Positions 8,248-35,148 of a DNA stretch of 35,712 nucleotides are shown here, piece by piece. The position numbers and the translations under genes were made by a program. Every line of letters starts with the position of its first letter. The stretch's first letter is position 1. The stretch comes from a virus. Where the stretch lies: positions 1 to 35,712 of the IMG/VR virus record IMGVR_UViG_3300030385_000682. One strand, given 5' to 3'. The notes beneath the pieces are model-generated. The model saw nothing but the letters and a program-made list of their open reading frames with translations. It ran no database searches and was not told the origin of the DNA.

Positions 8248-8547
8248 AGAAAAAGACAAAAAAATACCCCCTGAAAAATCGGCTTTATATTGTTGGTTTG
8301 CCAAAAAAAAGTTTCGTGCACATATATGCACATACGATTAGAAACGTGTATAACGCCTAATTAAACGCACGCGGGCTTGCGAAAAGACATATACGCCCCC
8401 CCTCCTGCGAAAAGACATATACGTATGTGCGCCCGCGAAAATAAGAAACGTACGCGCTCCTGCGAAAAGATATATACGTGCGTTATAAACACGCGTTATA
8501 AGAAGCAAGCCAGCCATTTCTGACCGACTCGCTAATTTTGCAGCTAT
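8248..8547. other. Non-coding control segment with iteron-like array
   Basis: No credible gene lies here. The stretch is locally rich in CG dinucleotides in an otherwise AT-rich genome. It contains four repeat units (8378-8478, separate entry), a TGCACATA direct repeat near 8317-8335, the 14-mer TAGAAACGTGTATA at 8339-8352 (also at 9636-9649), and runs of A8 (near 8303) and C7. It looks like a protein-binding or replication control site. Confidence 0.5.
8378..8478. repeat. Tandem iteron-like repeats, 27-28 bp period
   Basis: Near-identical 18-mers TGCGAAAAGACATATACG stand at 8378-8395 and 8406-8423, and a copy with one change (T for C) at 8461-8478. A degenerate unit (CGCGAAAATAAGAAACG) sits at about 8433-8450. 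The starts are 28, 27 and 28 bases apart. Regularly spaced oriented repeats of this size are typical of iterons bound by a replication initiator, or of cooperative operators. Confidence 0.6.
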
Positions 8548-11148: not shown

Positions 11149-12606
11149 ATGGGTAGGAAATCAAAAGATGAACTAGCACAAGACGCATTATCGGGAGACG
11201 TCAAGCAAGCACTAAAGAAAAAGCTTTGTGAGTTATCGTACTTTGAATTTTTTAAAGAAGCCTTTAAGGTGGTTGAGCCAGCCGTTGAACTGGATATTAA
11301 CTGGCATCACCGCTATATATGTAAGATATTACAGGACGAAGCTGAGAGAATCATACGAGGGGAAGACAAGCAGCGAGATATTATTATCAATATCCCGTTC
11401 CGCGCTTCTAAGTCTCTTATGTGCACCATTCTTTTTCCAGTGTGGTGTTGGATTCGTGACCCCAAGCTTCGATTTATTACTGCTTCTTATAGTGCATCTC
11501 TGTCTATTGAGCACAGCGCTAAGTCAAGAGACGTAATAACATCTAATTGGTTTCAAGAGAACTGGGGAGAGGACTTCCAGATTAAGCCAGACCAAAATAC
11601 AAAACAGAATTACGTTAACAACGAGACAGGTAGTAGGAGAGCTACATCTGTTGGAGGTACTGTTACAGGTGCTGGAGCTTCGATAATAATTGTCGATGAC
11701 CCTATATCTCCAAAGCAAGCTGCCTCTCAAACAGAAAGGAGTCATGCGAACGAGTGGTATACGAGTACGCTGTACTCAAGGCTAGATAACCCTAGAACTG
11801 GCGTGAGGATTATAATCATGCAGAGGTTACACGAAGACGACCTTAGCGGTTATCTTCTTAGGGAGAATCCTGACAACTATAAACATATTTGTATTCCCGC
11901 TGAAAAGGAAGGCAACTTATCACCTAAAGGCTTAGAGAAGTTTTACAAAGAAGACTTATTTTGGGATTCAAGATTTTCAAGAAAGATTCTTCAAGACTAT
12001 AAATACCAACTTGGTAGTTATGAATATGCTGGTCAACTTCAGCAACAGCCTGCTCCTGCGGATGGGGGAATCATTAAGCCTGAATGGTTTAACTACGAGA
12101 AGACTTTTGACGAGGATTTAGTATGGCATTTCGTTATTGACCCTGCGTACACATCAAAGCAAAGTAATGACCCTTCAGCGATGTTAGTGTTTGCAATTAA
12201 AGAAAATAATTACTATATTCGCAAGGTTGAAGAGAGATATTTAGAGTTCCCAGAGCTAGTGAAATATATAGTTGACTTTTGCCAAAAAAATGGTTATACT
12301 AATCGCTCAAGGATTTATGTCGAACCAAAGGCTAGTGGTAAGTCCGTAGTACAGACTCTACGTAGGTCTACGAGATTAAACATACTAGAAGCTAAGTCTC
12401 CAACAAAAGACAAAGTAGCTAGAGTTAGGGATGTTGTAGGTATGATAGAATCTGGAAGGGTAACTTTAATAGAAGGGAAATGGACAGATAATTTCGTTTC
12501 ACAATGTTCTCAGTTCCCTAATGCGAGACACGATGATATGGTTGATTGTTTGCAGATGGCGTTAGATAGAAGTAATAAAGGTTCAAGGATAACAGCGTTT
12601 AGATAA
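11149..12606 (+). CDS. terL: Terminase large subunit
   Basis: The 485-aa protein starts at ATG 11149. It shows a Walker A-like IPFRASKS at 83-89 (a degenerate P-loop, as in many TerL), Walker B IIIVDDP at 179-185, and the RNase H-fold nuclease with VIDPAYTS (Asp331), an acidic strand region near 395 and the terminal RHDDMVD box near 463-469. It is the packaging motor that translocates DNA into proheads and cuts concatemers. Unusually, no portal follows; tail genes do, and the portal lies about 13 kb downstream. Confidence 0.93.
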   Translation: MGRKSKDELAQDALSGDVKQALKKKLCELSYFEFFKEAFKVVEPAVELDINWHHRYICKILQDEAERIIRGEDKQRDIIINIPFRASKSLMCTILFPVWCWIRDPKLRFITASYSASLSIEHSAKSRDVITSNWFQENWGEDFQIKPDQNTKQNYVNNETGSRRATSVGGTVTGAGASIIIVDDPISPKQAASQTERSHANEWYTSTLYSRLDNPRTGVRIIIMQRLHEDDLSGYLLRENPDNYKHICIPAEKEGNLSPKGLEKFYKEDLFWDSRFSRKILQDYKYQLGSYEYAGQLQQQPAPADGGIIKPEWFNYEKTFDEDLVWHFVIDPAYTSKQSNDPSAMLVFAIKENNYYIRKVEERYLEFPELVKYIVDFCQKNGYTNRSRIYVEPKASGKSVVQTLRRSTRLNILEAKSPTKDKVARVRDVVGMIESGRVTLIEGKWTDNFVSQCSQFPNARHDDMVDCLQMALDRSNKGSRITAFR

Positions 12607-12633: not shown

Positions 12634-13457
12634 ATGAGAGATTTTCACGGACACGACATACCCGAATGTTGGGAAGATGTATCAATAGATATGTACTCGA
12701 AGTACGGTGTGGCAGTTGAAAAGTTTAACAGTGAATTAGATAAAGCTGAAGAAGGCGAAGATTCGCTAACGGTTACAATAAGGGAGGTTGAGCTTCAAGC
12801 TTCAATATTTAAAACCATGAGTGGTATAAATAACGAGGACTTAGGTAGTGTCGATATAGGATTCATTTCTTCTTACGTTGAAGAGTTAAGTTTCCTTTCA
12901 GAGATACGCCAAACAACAGAGTTAAAGAGCTTTGTGTTTGAGGGTGAGTTATATGAGATACCTGAAAAGGTGAACATGAATACTCAATTTGGTCAGTACT
13001 TAGAAGCTATGCAGGTGGAGATGGTATTTAGAGAGGCAGGTGAAGGTTCTCTTGATTACTTACCAATACAGCTAGCGCATATTTGTATGAACGGTGAAGA
13101 TTATCACCCTAAGAAAAGGGACATATTAGCAGAGAAGTTTAAAGAACTTCCAATTACAGTAGGCTTGGACTTCGCTTTTTTTTTGAGCAGTCAGTCGCTG
13201 ACTTACAGCAAAGCTCTTCAGTTGTACACAGAAGGGATAGCCCGAAAGAGCGAAGGGTATATGAAAAGTATTTTAAGACGTTTGGTTGGATTAAAACGCT
13301 TTATGAACTTGCGGAAGCTAATGTCTTTACGTTCGGTGGGCACAGCGCTGTTGACAGTGTTAAGCGTACACCTACGGGAGAAGTGTTCATGTATTTATCG
13401 TTACTTCGTGCGAGAGGTAACTACGAAGTAGAGGCTAGCGAATTAAGAAAAGAATAA
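12634..13457 (+). CDS. Tail assembly-type protein made by probable -1 frameshift
   Basis: Frame 0 runs from ATG 12634 to 13431 (265 aa), but its last 80 or so residues look like out-of-frame sequence rich in Leu/Arg. The -1 frame from the T9 run onward reads FFFEQSVADL and then FGWIKTLYELAEANVF, GEVFMYLSLLRARGNYE and ends at 13457. It is protein-like, and I have the impression of similar endings in related phage proteins. A -1 shift at 13176-13182 gives a product of about 274 aa. The N-terminal part is acidic and helical (PEKVNMNTQFGQYLEAMQVE). Tail chaperones are the classic phage users of -1 frameshifts, though they usually sit just before the tape measure; here three tail genes intervene. 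A homopolymer sequencing error (9 versus 10 T) is the alternative. Confidence 0.7.
13176..13203 (+). promoter_or_regulatory. Candidate -1 ribosomal frameshift site
   Basis: The run of nine T's at 13176-13184 contains the heptamer T_TTT_TTT (13176-13182) in the right phase for tandem tRNA-Phe slippage. Six bases later AGTCAG/CTGACT (13189-13203) forms a 6-bp hairpin with a 3-nt loop, within the usual spacing for a stimulatory structure. Polymerase slippage on the T run could act in addition. Confidence 0.65.
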
Positions 13458-13464
13458 AACCATC

Positions 13465-13887
13465 ATGGCAGTAGTAACATTAGCAACTATAAAAACAAAA
13501 CTCAGCGACGCTGTAACAAGCACTGCTGGGTTAGAATCTTTAGAGTTTACTCACATATCAGAATTAACAACTAAGCACAATGTTAGTTATCCTTGCTTAG
13601 TGTTTGATATTCCAGATACAACAGAGTTAAACTTCAATAGAGATGTAGAGAAGTACGCGATAGAGGTTTACGTGCTAGACTTAAATTCTAGTCACGCATC
13701 TTTCGATGCTCACTACGACTCAACAAAAACTTTAATGAGGACTTGGTATAAAGCTTTATTAGACCAAAACAACTTAGATATAATTATTGAGCGTGAAGAT
13801 ATTGATATTGAGAGAGTTCAGAATATAACTCCAGACATCGTTAGCGGCGTTATGGTTAAGTTAGGGTTAACAGTATCATTCTACTAA
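13465..13887 (+). CDS. Putative tail terminator/minor tail protein (140 aa)
   Basis: Starts at ATG 13465, eight bases after the -1 frame stop of the preceding gene. The protein is alpha/beta with an N-terminal helix (LATIKTKLSDAVTS), a central strand VEKYAIEVYVLDLN, and a C-terminal beta segment typical of phage tail-completion folds. Size and position (between terminase and tail genes) would suit a tail terminator, but no signature motif is seen, so the call rests on context. Confidence 0.6.
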   Translation: MAVVTLATIKTKLSDAVTSTAGLESLEFTHISELTTKHNVSYPCLVFDIPDTTELNFNRDVEKYAIEVYVLDLNSSHASFDAHYDSTKTLMRTWYKALLDQNNLDIIIEREDIDIERVQNITPDIVSGVMVKLGLTVSFY

Positions 13888-13890
13888 GGT

Positions 13891-14397
13891 ATGGCTGAAA
13901 GTGGTTCTATAAATAGAAGAATGGCAGGTATCGCAGGTTATATAACTCGTGTACTACGTCAAGAGCTTGAGGTTCGTGGTCACAATGTGACTAGGGATTT
14001 AAGTAACTCTATACATACAAGGTGGAATCACGGAACTAAAAGCTTTGACATAACTATGCAAAAGCACGGGCAGTCATTAAACAGTAGAGATATATATAAG
14101 GTTTTTCCTCCCGTTGATAAAATACTTCAATGGATTAAAGATAAAGGGATAACCCCTTACTCTGACATAAAAGGTAAATCTAAAGCTGACAAACAAGAAA
14201 GATTAGCTTTCGCTATACAGAAGAGTATGGGTAAGAATGGGTACGGGTTAGAGGATAAAAATAAAAACCCTATTGGGTGGATACAGATGGCTATTGATAA
14301 TGCCTCAGGTACTATTGTATCAATCTTGCAAGATGAATTAAGAACTGACTTAGGTATCACGGTAGATAGAAATCTATCAAGATTCTATAAAAAATAA
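13891..14397 (+). CDS. Putative neck or tail-completion protein (168 aa)
   Basis: Starts at ATG 13891, three bases after the previous stop. It is basic with an N-terminal helix (RRMAGIAGYITRVLRQELEVRG), a 'SIHTRWNHGTKSF' strand segment, and a helical block ILQWIKDKGITPYS and ERLAFAIQKSMGKNGYG. The general pattern of helix plus sheet, with a conserved Gly-Tyr, is reminiscent of HK97 gp10-like head-tail proteins, but the match is weak. I call it a virion morphogenesis protein by neighbourhood. Confidence 0.55.
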   Translation: MAESGSINRRMAGIAGYITRVLRQELEVRGHNVTRDLSNSIHTRWNHGTKSFDITMQKHGQSLNSRDIYKVFPPVDKILQWIKDKGITPYSDIKGKSKADKQERLAFAIQKSMGKNGYGLEDKNKNPIGWIQMAIDNASGTIVSILQDELRTDLGITVDRNLSRFYKK

Positions 14398-15693: not shown

Positions 15694-18600
15694 ATGGCTA
15701 ATAACTTAAAATTACGTATACAAAACGGTACTAAGGTGTTATCTGGAGATTTCATACCCGTAGGTTCTAACGAAGACTTTAATGACTGGACTGACGGAAC
15801 TCCTGTTGGATGGACTCCAATTAATATAGATAATTCTGACGCAGTATCTCAATTAGATAATATTGATTTCGATACTGACGTTGATGGTGATGGGGATGAT
15901 ATAATTCCTTTATTCGGAGGTCAAATTAACCTACCCGAAGCGTGGACTACAAAGCTTAACGGATTAGTTAACAACGGATTAGACTCAAGCGGAAACCCGA
16001 TAGAAAGCACTACCGCTTTCCTTCCCGCTTTAAAGTTTGATGTAGCTGATTCTGTCGGCACTATAACTAGAGAGAAAGCAGACTACTTTACTTATGCTAA
16101 CAACGACTCAGATGGTCAATACACGTTTGGTAGCTGGTTTGTGAAAAATTATATACCTAATAGAAATGACCTTAAAACGGGTGTTCAGCACAGGGTTTCG
16201 CACACTATGGTACAGCTTTGCGCAAAAAACCAAGACATTAAAGCCTTTCAGCAGTGGGGTCAATTTACTGATTATGACACAAGTAGAAATACTCAGTTTA
16301 TAGCTAAGAGTGTATTCCAGAAGGATTCGATAGGTGGGTTCGCTTTGATATCTATAAATTTAAATCAAGCACTAGTCTCTACCAACTGGAGAGATGGTGA
16401 CGTTCTGGTTATAACTACAAATACTATTGACGAAGACGCTGAATACGATAAAACATATAAGCGAGAAGCATTGGTTGAGGTTAACTTAACGGAAAGAAAG
16501 ATAGATTCACAAGATGTACTTATACATAAGAAGTTATACGTTAATTCAAACGACTTAACTATAACTATAAGGAGTCTTGACGGACAACTAACCAACTCTA
16601 GGATTGAAATTAAAGATATAGTGTTCCATTCTGGAGAAGACTCTTACGTTGACGTTGAAACTCTTGGTGGTGTAACTATTTATCACGACAACACTAGAAC
16701 TGCTCACGCCCCCCCAGAGATAAGTCAACACCTCAAGGAATACTCAATAGGTAAAACTATAAACCTCGCTGTGGATGTTGTTCTTTCAACTATGAATACA
16801 GTATACGATAATGTGATAGTAGATTTTGGAGGTGTTAATTCATATCTGATAACTGCGACAGGTGCTCACACCTTTTCAATGATTGCTGACGGTCAGTTTG
16901 TTAGAGTTAGGTTAAGTGGTAAGGATGGTGCTAATGGGACGATAGCTCATTTTAGTGAGATATCAGTATCGGTCAGTTCAACTACAACTAACTCAATAAC
17001 ACAAGTTGGAGACCCTACTGTAAGTCCGTTCACGTCAGAGGTTCGTATACACAACTCTGCTGAAAACTCAAAGAGGGTTGATTATGGTATAGCAACGTCT
17101 TTAGATTTTAAAGTTGGAGAGACTTATAAGATTGACTTAGATGTAAATTCAATATCGGCTAACACTGAGATTAAAGTTCTAATAAATAGGGTAGAGCAAT
17201 CTACAATAACATCTTCAGGAGTATCAACTATAAATTATACACCGACAGAGAAAGTATCCTCACTTCAACTTAGAGTAGCGTCAACCAATAATGGCTCTAC
17301 TGATGTGAGTCTAAACTCAATGAAGACATTCCTGAATAAACTGAAGATTTCTAACGTTTACAGTGAGCTCGATTTTTACGAAGACACTGTGATAAATTCA
17401 ACATTCGCAGTTAAAGATGCAGAGTATTTATCTACAAATAATGGCGATTACAGTAAGACAATCAATATTCCTGCAAGTGTAAATAATTTAAAAGCTTTTA
17501 GCGGTCTTCATGAAATAACACAGAAAGATAATTTAGGAATACGCAATGGTGTACCTTTTATTCTAACTGAAGATGGTCAAAACATATTAACAGGTAAAGC
17601 CTTTTTAGTTGGGGTTAAATACGCAATGGATAGCGCTGAGTATTTAGAGATTGAACTTAAGGGTGGTAATAATGATTGGTCTGAAGTTATAAAAAATAAG
17701 GAGTTAAGCGATTTATCTATGGGAGTTGAGTCTATTTCCACTGACTCTATAATAGTATCAAATTCATTGGGGTCACTATCTAACGTGTGCTATCCTTTGC
17801 TTGACTTAGGTGAGTGGGGTATTAATGATGGCGCTTATACTTTAACCCCCGAACATATAAGACCCGCTTATAAGATTAGTAAGGTTTTTGATTCTATTTT
17901 TAACGAATCTGGATACTCAATTAAGTCTAACTTCTTTGAGGATAATAATGACTTTGATAACGACTTCTCGCCTGAGTTTCACAATAACTGGAAAAAGTTT
18001 ATAGGGGTAAATGGAAATCCTAAGAGGAGTCAGAAGTCTATAACTGAGAGTGTTTTAATGGTTTCAACGACGACAGACGCTCAATCACTAAATAACTACA
18101 ACGGAGTTCTTCCTAAACTTATAGATTCAATGGATTACTCTGGTCAGTTTGGGAATATGTATTGGGGGGATATAGACTTAGAGCTAGACAACCCACTACT
18201 TAGCGCAACAGGTCATTACTTAGCCTTAATAGAGCACGCTGTTGTTAATTTTGAAACAACACATATTGATGGATTAAATCAGGTAAGCTCAAGCTCAACT
18301 CCTTTTGGTTTTTTAGAGAACGACTATTCTGGAGATTTCTCTTATCCTAATAACGGGACTATGTTTAATGTTGAGCTTTCTGGGGTCTACGATATAGATT
18401 TAACGATGAAGCTAGATATAATTAGGGGTGCGCAAGGTAATTTTTTTACAGGATATGTTTATGCTTTCTTGGTTAAGCAAGGAACTAGTTTGAATGAGTT
18501 TTTCAGTATATTCAGACAGTCCTCTTATAAAACAGTACACGCAGGGGAAGGTAACGGGTTAAAGGAATTTGCTATATCTCAAAACCAATATCTAACTGCT

Positions 18601-19770
18601 GGAGCTAACTACCAATTATATGTTTTTCAACAGGATATTAACGAGGGTAGTGTTTACGGGTTTAACCATAGCTTCATATTAAAGTCTTGTGACTTATCAA
18701 TGAAGTTGTCTGAAAACATAATGCCTGACAATGTAATGTATGAATCTTGGAATGACATGATTCCTGAGTATAAGGTAGCAGATATATTGCCATTTAAAAC
18801 TCAGCTAGAATTTATATCCGAAGTTAGCAAGATATTTAACCTTACATGGCAGACAAACCCAATAACTAAAGTTATAGAGGTAGAACCTTATAATGATTTT
18901 TACGACTGGAGTGGGGATAAGTTTGATTATTTAGACTGGAATGATAAGGGGTATATTGATAGTTTTAAATCTGACTCTATACTAAAAGGAGCTTTAAGCT
19001 ATACTTTTAATAGCGACTCATCAGACGGCTCTCTATCGTATTACTCTCTAAGTGATGATATACAATTTGGAGACAAGAAGGTTATTACTGGGGTTTACAG
19101 TAAAGACGACCATAAGCATGAACTGAGAATATATTCATCAGCTAAGATGGGCGAGGATAGGTTTATATCTAATATAAACAACCCTAATAGTGATTCAGGT
19201 TCTGCAATAAGGTTAATGAAAATTCATAGTGGCTCTGAGTTCAAAACATACTACTCTTCAAACGGAGACAAGCCAGCGGTGGTAAAATCATTCGGGCATA
19301 AGTTAGCTATATTTGACTCTGTAAGGGAAACCCCTCAAGGTACAGATATAAGATATTCATTAAAAAAAGTTTGGAGTAGTTCTTCTAATGAGTGGGTTAT
19401 GGAAAATAGGGTTGAGGGGGCTTACGCTTACGCTTATACTTATACAGACGTAGACTCCACTAAGCCTGTATTAACCTTCTCTGAACAGACCGTTACGGAT
19501 GCGGACAACGCACCAGCTACGGTAGGAGGGTTATATAACACGTATCACCAGAAAAGGGTTGAAATGCTAAAATTCTCAGACAGGATAGCAATAGCATTAG
19601 TTAACCTAAGCTACAACGATATACACGAGCTAAACTTTAGAAGGTTAGTTAAATTAGACGGTGCTTTGTATATGATAAACAAGATTAAAGATTATACTCC
19701 TAACTCAGATGAGCCGACAGAGGTTGAGTTGATATTAGTAACGCCTCGCGGTAACAAAGAAAAAATATAA
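15694..19770 (+). CDS. Large tail tip/host-interaction protein (1358 aa)
   Basis: Starts at ATG 15694, three bases after the previous stop. It has an N-terminal region with Asp-rich loops (DFDTDVDGDGDD near 60), multiple Asn/Thr/Ser-rich beta segments resembling receptor or carbohydrate-binding sandwiches, and a middle/C-terminal part with SGLHEITQKDNLGI, LEFISEVSKIFNLTWQTN and IEVEPYNDFYDWSG that looks like a baseplate hub fold. It is the largest gene of the phage. Its position before the tape measure and adjoining another tail protein suggests a tail-tip or baseplate component, perhaps carrying the receptor-binding activity. The assignment is by context. Confidence 0.65.
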   Translation: MANNLKLRIQNGTKVLSGDFIPVGSNEDFNDWTDGTPVGWTPINIDNSDAVSQLDNIDFDTDVDGDGDDIIPLFGGQINLPEAWTTKLNGLVNNGLDSSGNPIESTTAFLPALKFDVADSVGTITREKADYFTYANNDSDGQYTFGSWFVKNYIPNRNDLKTGVQHRVSHTMVQLCAKNQDIKAFQQWGQFTDYDTSRNTQFIAKSVFQKDSIGGFALISINLNQALVSTNWRDGDVLVITTNTIDEDAEYDKTYKREALVEVNLTERKIDSQDVLIHKKLYVNSNDLTITIRSLDGQLTNSRIEIKDIVFHSGEDSYVDVETLGGVTIYHDNTRTAHAPPEISQHLKEYSIGKTINLAVDVVLSTMNTVYDNVIVDFGGVNSYLITATGAHTFSMIADGQFVRVRLSGKDGANGTIAHFSEISVSVSSTTTNSITQVGDPTVSPFTSEVRIHNSAENSKRVDYGIATSLDFKVGETYKIDLDVNSISANTEIKVLINRVEQSTITSSGVSTINYTPTEKVSSLQLRVASTNNGSTDVSLNSMKTFLNKLKISNVYSELDFYEDTVINSTFAVKDAEYLSTNNGDYSKTINIPASVNNLKAFSGLHEITQKDNLGIRNGVPFILTEDGQNILTGKAFLVGVKYAMDSAEYLEIELKGGNNDWSEVIKNKELSDLSMGVESISTDSIIVSNSLGSLSNVCYPLLDLGEWGINDGAYTLTPEHIRPAYKISKVFDSIFNESGYSIKSNFFEDNNDFDNDFSPEFHNNWKKFIGVNGNPKRSQKSITESVLMVSTTTDAQSLNNYNGVLPKLIDSMDYSGQFGNMYWGDIDLELDNPLLSATGHYLALIEHAVVNFETTHIDGLNQVSSSSTPFGFLENDYSGDFSYPNNGTMFNVELSGVYDIDLTMKLDIIRGAQGNFFTGYVYAFLVKQGTSLNEFFSIFRQSSYKTVHAGEGNGLKEFAISQNQYLTAGANYQLYVFQQDINEGSVYGFNHSFILKSCDLSMKLSENIMPDNVMYESWNDMIPEYKVADILPFKTQLEFISEVSKIFNLTWQTNPITKVIEVEPYNDFYDWSGDKFDYLDWNDKGYIDSFKSDSILKGALSYTFNSDSSDGSLSYYSLSDDIQFGDKKVITGVYSKDDHKHELRIYSSAKMGEDRFISNINNPNSDSGSAIRLMKIHSGSEFKTYYSSNGDKPAVVKSFGHKLAIFDSVRETPQGTDIRYSLKKVWSSSSNEWVMENRVEGAYAYAYTYTDVDSTKPVLTFSEQTVTDADNAPATVGGLYNTYHQKRVEMLKFSDRIAIALVNLSYNDIHELNFRRLVKLDGALYMINKIKDYTPNSDEPTEVELILVTPRGNKEKI

Positions 19771-19773
19771 GCT

Positions 19774-22515
19774 ATGAGTAGCAAGAAGAGATTATTAGAT
19801 TTAGGTATAGACGTAACTGGCTTTGATAAGCTAGTTAAGTTAACTAAAGCCCTTGAAGATGAGAAAAGGGTTTTAGCAGGGTTAAATAAAATTAAACTTG
19901 AGGGCGCTAAGTTAGATAAGAGGCAGGCTAATACTCAAGCAGAGGCTACCGTAAAAGTCAAGATGCACACAGCGAGTATAGGTAAGCTTCAAAACAAGAT
20001 GCTTGGGTTAAATACTGTTCAAGGTAAATCTAACAAGGGTTTAATGGGTATGATTTCTACGTTTGGTAGAATCACTGGGGCTATATTCCTTGCTCAAAGA
20101 GCTTTCTCTTTAATCTTCGGAGCTGTAATGGCTACCGTAGATGCTTATGCAGAGTTCGAGAAGACGTTGACTAACGTTATGTCCCTTATGACTCAATCTC
20201 AAGTAGATTTATTCAAGGATGATATGTGGGACACTGGAATAAGTTTAGTGAATAAGTACGGCTTCGCAGTTAAGGACGTTAATAAAGCTATGTTTGATGC
20301 TGTATCAGCAGGTGTTAGCGCGTCAAACTCTATGGGGTTTATGAAGACAGCTTCCATGTTAGCCGTTGCTGGTGTGACTCAATTAAAGGATGCTACTCTA
20401 GGATTGGTAACTATATTGAATTCTTACAAAATGGAGACCAGTGAAGCTCAAAGAGTTGCTGAAGTCCTATTTACCACACAGAAGTTCGGTGTAACAACTG
20501 TTGAACAGTTATCTAAATCTATTGGTATAGTAGCACCATTAGCAGCTTTAACGGGAATATCGATAGAAGAACTGGGGGCATCTATGGCTACAATGACTAA
20601 AGGTGGTCTTAATACCGCTATATCGGTTACGGCTTTAAGGTCTGCTTTAGCTACGATGATGAAACCCGCTAAAGAGTCGAAGGATTTATTCGTTAAATGG
20701 GGAGTACCTATGGGTACTGCTCAAATGAAAGCTGTTGGATTTACTGATACAATGAAAAAGCTACACGTAGTTCTAAGGGATAGTCCTTCTGATTTTGAGA
20801 AGATGTTTGGAAACATTCGTGGACTAACGGCTGTCGTGTCTATTGGTGGTGATAGGTTTGAGGATTATAAAAACATACTTAAAGAAATTACCGAAGATAC
20901 TGGCGATAATTCATCTTTAATTAAGGGTCAAGGAGAACAGATGGAGACAACTCAAATGTCTTTAGACAGGCTTTCAGGTTCTTGGGAGACATTTAAGATA
21001 GCTATGGGTGAGGATACTAGTGGTATGATAAAGGATGTATCAGATGAGTTATCAGTATTACTAAACATAGCAGCAAGCGATGAGGGCGGTATCTGGGAGG
21101 CTATTGCGGCTTTCGTAGGTACAGCTTACAACCCAATAATGGTAGCTCAGGTAAACGCTCAAAATATAGTTATTCAGGAGAATAAAAAACTAATAAAGAA
21201 CGCCGCGGAAGCGCTTAGAGGTTGGCGTGAGGAACTGTCACTTAGCGGTGATATAACTAAAGAGCAGGAGGGACTATATAGGAGGTTTATAGAAGATTAT
21301 GAACGGTACTACGAAGGGTTGGATGCTATTGATAAGGTTTTTTGGAGAGATAGATATGATGAAGCTAAAGCCTCTATAAATAAAATAGATACACTAAAAA
21401 ATGAAGCTGATGCGGCTAAAACTAGAAGGCAAACAAAGGCAGGTAAAGAAGCTCAAGCGTTTGACGCGATAGAATTATTCCTGAGAGAGAAACTAGAAAA
21501 GGAACTAGTTGATTTAACTATGGATTCTAGTAAGTCGTCCGAAGAAATTAACCTAGAAAGTAGAAATCTTAAAATAAAGAATTACAAAACACTTATATCT
21601 TTCGCTAAATCTTTTGGCATAGAATCAATAGAGTGGGAGAAGCTTCTAGCCCAAGAGACGTTAAAGATAAAGGAAGACGAAAGAAAAGCTAGGAAAGGAC
21701 TCGTTAAACAATCCGCGGAAGATGAATCTAAGTGGAATAAACTGAAAGCAGAAGCTATAAAAACCGAGGCTCAAGCTGAGATTGATGCAGAGAAAGCGAA
21801 GTGGGGTTTAAAGGCTGACGCAGTAAGAAGGGGTGTTGATGCTATAAGCGGGTTGATGGAATTAAAGGCTTCTAATGAAGCTAGGCAGAGAGACGCTGAG
21901 TTGGCTAGTCTTGACGAGAGATTCAATAACGGTATTATAACTGAGGAGAGGTACAACGAAGAGAAAGAGCGTATAAACAAAGAAGCTTTCTCGAAAGATA
22001 AAAAAAGAAGGCAAGCTGAAGTACTACTAAATACAATACAATCAGCGGCAGATGTTTTGATTGCTCAATATGAGAGGACTGCTGTAAATCCAGTTTTAGC
22101 ATTAGCCATGACCCCAGTAGTTATAACTCAACTAGCTTTAATAGCAGCTACTTCAGCAGCGAACGTAGCTATGATTGGAGCACAACAATACGCTTTAGGT
22201 GGTATGGTTCACGGTAACACTCACGCAGCAGGCGGTGAAAGCTTTGCTGTTGGTGGTCGTGTAGTTGAAATGGAAGGTGGTGAAGCTGTCTTAAATAAAA
22301 GAAGTACTCGTATGTTTAGAAACACTCTAAGCGCGATGAACGTAGCGGGTGGTGGTAAGTCATTCTCTTCCCCTAATATGTCAGGAGCTGGGCTTATAGA
22401 CTACGACAGACTAGCTAAAGCTATCGGTCAGAATACTCACGTAGCTATTCCAGTAGATACTTTGAATAAAGTTCAGAAAAGAGTATCTTTGATTGAAAGT
22501 TCTTCAAGGTTTTAA
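19774..22515 (+). CDS. Tape measure protein, TP901 family
   Basis: The 913-aa protein starts at ATG 19774. It has a charged N-terminal coiled coil (Lys/Glu-rich, 15-80), a hydrophobic segment around 93-125, then the TP901-like core: FEKTLTNVMSLM, AVSAGVSASNSMGFMKTA, ALTGISIEELGASMATM, LDRLSGSWETFKIAMGED. A long helical, Lys/Glu-rich section (460-720) and a hydrophobic C-terminal segment (MTPVVITQLALIAATSAANV) follow, and a Gly-rich end GGMVHGNTHAAGGE. It sets tail length and acts in DNA ejection. By length the tail would be of the order of 130 nm, an estimate from family proportions. Confidence 0.9.
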   Translation: MSSKKRLLDLGIDVTGFDKLVKLTKALEDEKRVLAGLNKIKLEGAKLDKRQANTQAEATVKVKMHTASIGKLQNKMLGLNTVQGKSNKGLMGMISTFGRITGAIFLAQRAFSLIFGAVMATVDAYAEFEKTLTNVMSLMTQSQVDLFKDDMWDTGISLVNKYGFAVKDVNKAMFDAVSAGVSASNSMGFMKTASMLAVAGVTQLKDATLGLVTILNSYKMETSEAQRVAEVLFTTQKFGVTTVEQLSKSIGIVAPLAALTGISIEELGASMATMTKGGLNTAISVTALRSALATMMKPAKESKDLFVKWGVPMGTAQMKAVGFTDTMKKLHVVLRDSPSDFEKMFGNIRGLTAVVSIGGDRFEDYKNILKEITEDTGDNSSLIKGQGEQMETTQMSLDRLSGSWETFKIAMGEDTSGMIKDVSDELSVLLNIAASDEGGIWEAIAAFVGTAYNPIMVAQVNAQNIVIQENKKLIKNAAEALRGWREELSLSGDITKEQEGLYRRFIEDYERYYEGLDAIDKVFWRDRYDEAKASINKIDTLKNEADAAKTRRQTKAGKEAQAFDAIELFLREKLEKELVDLTMDSSKSSEEINLESRNLKIKNYKTLISFAKSFGIESIEWEKLLAQETLKIKEDERKARKGLVKQSAEDESKWNKLKAEAIKTEAQAEIDAEKAKWGLKADAVRRGVDAISGLMELKASNEARQRDAELASLDERFNNGIITEERYNEEKERINKEAFSKDKKRRQAEVLLNTIQSAADVLIAQYERTAVNPVLALAMTPVVITQLALIAATSAANVAMIGAQQYALGGMVHGNTHAAGGESFAVGGRVVEMEGGEAVLNKRSTRMFRNTLSAMNVAGGGKSFSSPNMSGAGLIDYDRLAKAIGQNTHVAIPVDTLNKVQKRVSLIESSSRF

Positions 22516-34827: not shown

Positions 34828-35148
34828 TTACTTTTTTTTAGTTACTAATTCAATATACTTCATTTGCCACTCCACACTCTCTTGCTTATTTGTCATAGCC
34901 ATTTCCTTGTACTTTGACATAGAGAAATAACACTCCGTAAACTTAATCAAGCATAGTCTTATACTCTTTAATCTCTCTTCTTTCTGTTTAAAGAACTTAG
35001 ATTCTTTATCTCCAGAATAACCCTCCATTAATCCCTCCATATCAACAGTCTCGCTAAGTAGCTTCGTGTAAGCGTTCATACAAGACCACTCCTCGTTAGT
35101 TGTGGCGCAGTCTCTAAGCAACTGCATTGCCTCCTCCGCTACTTGCAT
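34828..35148 (-). CDS. Hypothetical helical protein (106 aa)
   Basis: Starts at ATG 35148, overlapping the stop of the small gene upstream (ATGCAAGTAG). It is all-helical and charged, with a likely coiled coil (KESKFFKQKEERLKSIRLCL) and a Lys-rich end. No family is recognised. Gap to the DnaA-like gene is seven bases, so it may act with it. Confidence 0.62.
   Translation of the reverse strand: MQVAEEAMQLLRDCATTNEEWSCMNAYTKLLSETVDMEGLMEGYSGDKESKFFKQKEERLKSIRLCLIKFTECYFSMSKYKEMAMTNKQESVEWQMKYIELVTKKK

Follow-up and report, generated by a model that had tools for sequence, protein, structure and literature searches.

A conserved -1 reading-frame switch at a T9 run in a probable tail assembly chaperone gene of tailed phages, with a long and probably dual-coded C-terminus

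Background

Lambda-type ribosomal frameshifting in tail assembly chaperones is a textbook example of conserved recoding. In lambda, the upstream frame (frame 0) stops early after the shift site, and chaperone genes of the G/GT type usually lie directly between the genes for the major tail protein and the tape measure protein, a position which is not functionally required. These proteins bind both the tape measure and the tail tube protein and do not form part of the virion. Signals for -1 ribosomal frameshifting often, though not obligatorily, include a stem-loop or pseudoknot downstream of the heptamer. Such -1 ribosomal shifting of the lambda type is the known rule for long-tailed phages (PMC5009743). 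With regard to the slippery sequences themselves, U_UUU_UUC is on the list of motifs that frameshift in E. coli, and U_UUU_UUU is among those which exceed 0.1% in this host without any stimulators (PMC4066793). Programmed transcriptional slippage on runs of nine As or Ts has been described for Thermus dnaX, IS elements, and Shigella mxiE and spa13 (PMC1088944, PMC5009743), and it is at a length of nine that many of the bacterial genomes, a large proportion of them, begin to show selection against slippage (PMC1088944). In the open-access literature, no description of transcriptional slippage for a tail chaperone was found.

Here, a gene in a 35.7-kb virus record was analysed (the whole stretch is referred to as the window), together with its relatives in other viral contigs and cultured phages. 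The comparative sequence evidence indicates that the switch into the -1 frame is real and conserved, that the protein is probably a tail assembly chaperone and, unexpectedly, that its long C-terminus is dual-coded. The -1 tail, the run length, the openness of frame 0 and the gene order are conserved.

Results and discussion

The gene and its two reading frames

Read directly, the gene runs from an ATG at 12634 to a TAA at 13429-13431 and encodes 265 amino acids in frame 0 (Table 1). At the T9 run (13176-13184), the codons are GCT TTT TTT TTG, and the in-phase heptamer T_TTT_TTT at 13176-13182 fits the X_XXY_YYZ pattern of -1 ribosomal frameshift signals. From the run, the -1 frame is open until a TAA at 13455-13457, 8 bases ahead of the next ATG at 13465, and includes FGWIKTLYELAE and GEVFMYLSLLRARG; a fusion of the N domain with the -1 tail has 274 amino acids. 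A preliminary description of this DNA had reported the same start, T run, heptamer and -1 end, all of which were recovered here. A T9 run alone is not rare in the window (one observed, 2.6 expected), and its significance therefore rests on its conservation. The other A/T runs of eight bases in the window are A8 at 8303, 9870 and 10166 and T8 at 34832 and 35248.

Table 1. Positions of the chaperone gene, its parts and its neighbours in the window, and of the corresponding genes in two cultured phages
Feature	Position	Strand	Basis or remark
Large terminase, directly upstream	11149..12606	+	PHROG 38, E 1e-105
N domain, 183 aa, common to both products; probable gpG-like tail assembly chaperone	12634..13182	+	Identity in relatives, AlphaFold (AF2) model, 2ob9 match
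T9 slip run with in-phase T_TTT_TTT	13176..13184	+	Exactly T9 in 172/184 related contigs, three phases
-1 frame tail (M1), about 92 aa, helical, T-like domain, giving the 274-aa fusion	13179..13457	+	Identity in relatives, AF2 model
Frame-0 tail, 82 aa, basic, pI 10.4, giving the 265-aa product	13183..13431	+	Openness by synonymous shuffling
6-bp hairpin, 3-base loop, not conserved	13189..13203	+	Folding tests, RNAalifold
Next gene, tail terminator-like position	13465..13887	+	Position only; homologue at same place in relatives
Tail completion-like gene	13891..14397	+	Position only; homologue at same place in relatives
1358-aa protein directly before the tape measure gene	15694-19770		
Tape measure protein, 6.6 kb downstream of the slip run	19774..22515	+	PHROG 1533, E 6e-43; Pfam PhageMin_Tail
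Chaperone gene of P12024L	L183 15001-15695		Annotated as two hypothetical proteins
Chaperone gene of P12024S	L282 601-1295		Annotated as two hypothetical proteins

Conservation of the -1 frame in relatives

As a direct query, the window protein retrieved no relatives among viral contigs or phage records, and it had no match above the curated cut-off in Pfam, PHROGs or NCBIfam. Relatives were instead reached via a terminase search for contigs with the same neighbourhood, nine of which carry the gene, and later scans added two contigs. Since L087 is nearly identical to L007 and L005 near-identical to L006, the count is given as about ten close relatives. In every one of these, the N domain lies in frame 0 (33-42% identical to the window) and the C domain, M1, in the -1 frame (40-48% identical), and the slip junction is C TTTTTTTTT G in all of them. 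A shift other than -1 was rejected, as the +1 frame after the run meets a stop within 0-9 codons in the window clade. A search of genome contigs with M1 patterns yielded no prophage relatives.

Three more scans of viral contigs, anchored on M1, on N (and in this case independent of both the slip site and M1) and on the contig L015, brought the total to 184 distinct contigs. L015 displays the same arrangement with a T9 run, and its terminase is 47% identical. Alignment of the window clade with the wider set by hhalign gave moderate profile scores (E 1.8e-4 for N and 7.5e-5 for M1), and the two are bridged by L015 (E 7e-11 for M1 and 8e-5 for N) as well as by an agreeing gene order, which together lend moderate support to their homology. 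Throughout the wider family, the N domain is again found in frame 0 and the C domain in the -1 frame, and in the members L057, L059, L065, L076 and L080 the gene follows directly downstream of the terminase. The family matches phrog_32199, a PHROG without assigned function, and includes the cultured Nonlabens phages P12024L and P12024S (genus Inhavirus), both with T9; these are about 26% identical to the family query L059 and have a frame-0 tail of 25 codons. The records of these phages split the gene at the frame change into two hypothetical proteins (P12024L_40/41 and P12024S_38/39). Even for cultured phages, annotation thus shows one or two hypothetical proteins here and misses the chaperone fusion. 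In Flavobacterium phage 6H, a protein of the length of gp10 is related in fold to the N domain. The unannotated stretch that follows gp10 (L184 9900-10927 for the two together) holds an M1-like tail in another frame and no T9, which may reflect either two shifts or a sequencing indel.

Since all close relatives and the wider family keep the C domain in the -1 frame, with the T run ahead of it intact, the programmed -1 event in a tail gene that the preliminary description had proposed is strongly supported. Its author had named two outcomes that would speak against the proposal, homologues ending in frame 0 and ten Ts in independent reads. Neither was seen: the C domain is in the -1 frame without exception among the relatives, and exactly nine Ts are present in 172 of the 184 related contigs.

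Identity of the protein and gene order

The AF2 model of the N domain has a pLDDT of 85. When it was compared by VIA-align with the top chains from Foldseek, the HK97 tail assembly chaperone (2ob9) came first of 253 chains (Z 5.7, 74 residues, 3.0 A), a modest match with a Z below 8, which is under the safe level for helical proteins, and spanning residues 1-90 of 183. The Foldseek search of the PDB with the N domain gave nothing significant, and a PDB sequence search with the N profile gave nothing relevant. Among viral models, the N domain matched many uncharacterised homologues, including proteins of P12024S and 6H, and one model named tail assembly chaperone (E 7e-3). M1 was modelled as a helical domain (pLDDT 76) and had no solved structural match. 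Taken together, the fold match, the arrangement in two frames and the location of the gene as the first of a tail cluster whose last gene is that of the tape measure make a G/GT-type tail assembly chaperone the best reading, and we consider this identification likely.

The gene is not placed between the major tail protein and the tape measure genes; it follows the large terminase, with four genes between it and the tape measure gene. The preliminary description had called the placement unusual, which holds in relation to the usual spot of such genes, but in this phage group it is the norm. From the terminase, the chaperone is followed by two short and two longer genes and then the tape measure, an order conserved, with small insertions, as far as P12024L, and the odd placement is thus a trait of the group. 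The homologue of the 1358-aa protein has 1791-1854 amino acids in L012 and L003. The order in the window between 11149 and 28000 is itself unusual, in that the terminase, the tail cluster and the tape measure come ahead of the genes for a protease (22851), what looks like the major capsid protein (23912) and the portal (25821).

Run length, phase and codon use

Among the 184 contigs, the run consists of nine Ts in 172, ten in 11 and eight in one. It occurs in three phases relative to frame 0, namely TTG TTT TTT TTT GTG (phase 0), GTT TTT TTT TCG (phase 1) and GCT TTT TTT TTG (phase 2). The ribosomal heptamer requires nine Ts in phase 0, eight in phase 1 and seven in phase 2, but all three phases have a length of nine. 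When sequences were clustered at 50% identity, T9 was found in 26 of 29 lineages compared to 14.9 expected (permutation p at or below 5e-5), under a null in which the codon after the run is independent of phase and about half of the lineages have nine Ts. A tree of 95 sequences implied at least five phase changes as against two length changes. The residues flanking the run are diverse (V, L, A, S, G or Y before it; S, L, V, I, A, Y or Q after it), which argues that the run length itself is held, even if run length and amino-acid constraint are partly entangled because two overlapping frames constrain the bases around the run. A homopolymer of about 8-10 As or Ts of conserved length, as expected for transcriptional slippage, is thus found independently of phase. 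Both Phe codons at the slip site are TTT in all 184 contigs, compared to 26% TTC among Phe codons elsewhere in these genes. The in-phase heptamer U_UUU_UUU is likewise present in all 184, a result that discriminates little, since every T9 run contains one.

Slippage by RNA polymerase or by the ribosome

In the window, bases 13189-13194 can pair with 13198-13203 after a spacer of 6 bases. The fold was close to that of shuffled sequences (z -0.87 for 13176-13250 and z -0.3 for the 60 bases after the run), and RNAalifold predicted 0 pairs of a conserved stem-loop downstream of the run in 10 relatives. The hairpin was therefore rejected as a stimulator, being unconserved among relatives and folding no better than shuffled sequence. 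No common AGGAGG-like motif, as might act as a Shine-Dalgarno-like stimulator, was seen by eye in the upstream stretches of 25 lineages. The heptamer and hairpin on which a ribosomal frameshift had initially been proposed are both present, but they do not establish the ribosomal mechanism: relatives lack a conserved hairpin, and they hold the run length independently of phase, which suits transcriptional slippage at least equally well.

The lack of a conserved 3' structure and the phase-independent length favour transcriptional over ribosomal slippage, and we lean, cautiously, towards a G/GT-type chaperone with two products whose -1 move at T9 would come about mostly by slippage of RNA polymerase. 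Normal decoding would give the 265-aa protein, composed of the N domain and the basic frame-0 tail. Slippage of RNA polymerase at T9 would produce messages that have gained one U or lost two, and these would place ribosomes in the -1 frame and yield the 274-aa fusion with a different, helical C domain. By analogy with lambda, the two proteins would presumably act in a fixed ratio: the part that they share would bind the tape measure protein, and the -1 domain would bring in the tail tube protein. Should polymerase slippage prove true for the whole phage group, it would mean that the ratio of the two proteins is conserved and not the means of its production.

A plausible, somewhat less likely alternative is that the same chaperone makes its two products as lambda and most tail chaperones described so far do, with ribosomes slipping into the -1 frame on U_UUU_UUU. 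This would agree with the rule in long-tailed phages (PMC5009743), with the activity of the motif in E. coli in the absence of stimulators (PMC4066793) and with the heptamer lying in phase in every contig; nine Ts could then balance efficient ribosomal slippage against the mutational instability of longer runs, and the occurrence of T10 and T8 runs also speaks against the transcriptional reading. However, runs in phases 1 and 2 carry one or two Ts beyond what the heptamer needs, and their length stays constant across phases. Moreover, TTC, which would be tolerated in U_UUU_UUC, never occurs at the slip codons, and there is no conserved stem-loop.

The frame-0 tail and dual coding

Behind the run, frame 0 is open for 82 codons in the window and for 71-94 codons in 10 of the 10 clade members tested. 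When the -1 frame was re-sampled synonymously, the median open stretch in frame 0 was 4-30 codons, corresponding to a p of 0.003 or less for each of the ten clade members, which are not independent of one another; for seven L015-like members, the corresponding p values were 0.003-0.012. Among 378 control stretches, each 92 codons in length and drawn from long ORFs on the same contigs, one was open for at least 70 codons (0.53 expected), and none had a p at or below 0.015. Long frame-0 tails had at first seemed limited to the window clade and L015, a view that was dropped after wider sampling, in which long openness recurred in several lineages and was absent in others. The frame-0 tail had at first been judged unlike a folded protein, which is fair as a visual impression, but as regards openness the idea that it is junk was rejected, the frame being kept open far beyond chance. 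Since frame 0 is selected to stay open, its tail is probably a real alternative C-terminus. Judging from the sequences, about 80 codons would thus be read in two frames and specify two similar-sized proteins with alternative C-termini.

It is also quite possible that the frame-0 tail has no protein function and that its openness only keeps ribosomes translating up to the next gene, by way of coupling or the avoidance of polarity. The frame-0 stop usually lies near the -1 stop and the next start (13431, 13457 and 13465 in the window), and in amino acids the frame-0 tails of the window and of its relatives were only slightly more identical than in simulation (z 0.8-2.4), both of which would suit such a role. 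In many distant members, in contrast, frame 0 stops at 17-54 codons and does not reach that far, and between closer members the identity exceeded simulation by z 3-5, to which shared ancestry contributes. Synonymous conservation in M1 was only mildly raised compared to N. An altogether trivial origin, by sequencing or assembly error (a true T10 and one continuous frame) or gene decay, is very improbable and in practice ruled out by the relatives: homopolymers are error-prone and T10 occurs in 11 of the 184 contigs, but in the T10 contigs too the C domain lies in the -1 frame, two cultured phages and independent assemblies of many samples agree on nine Ts, and both frames stay open under selection.

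Taken further, it is conceivable, if somewhat doubtful, that in a large group of (probably flavobacterial) tailed phages the chaperone ratio is set by T9 polymerase slippage, with true dual coding of 55-90 codons and two functional C-termini in several clades. If so, two frames would be maintained across one and the same stretch of 55-90 codons, and few overlapping genes would be as well supported.

Comparison with known systems

A -1 switch in a tail chaperone is of a known kind, and what differs here is the T9 run of conserved length and the long open frame 0. As in lambda gpG/gpGT, the gene belongs to the tail cluster, the N domain is shared, a T-like C domain occurs only in the fusion and the -1 shift lies near the end of the upstream frame. 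Unlike in lambda, the shift site is T9 rather than a mixed heptamer, the gene adjoins the terminase instead of the tape measure and slippage may be transcriptional; frame 0, which in lambda stops soon, continues for about 80 codons, so that the products are similar in size. HK97 gp13 (PDB 2ob9) is the top structural match of the N domain, although the two have no detectable sequence similarity and the match covers about 90 of 183 residues. In Thermus dnaX, IS elements and Shigella mxiE and spa13, as in the window, about nine As or Ts within a coding region open another frame. The Nonlabens phages P12024L and P12024S share with the window the large terminase, the N domain, T9, the -1 tail and the same following genes, and differ from it in their shorter frame-0 tail.
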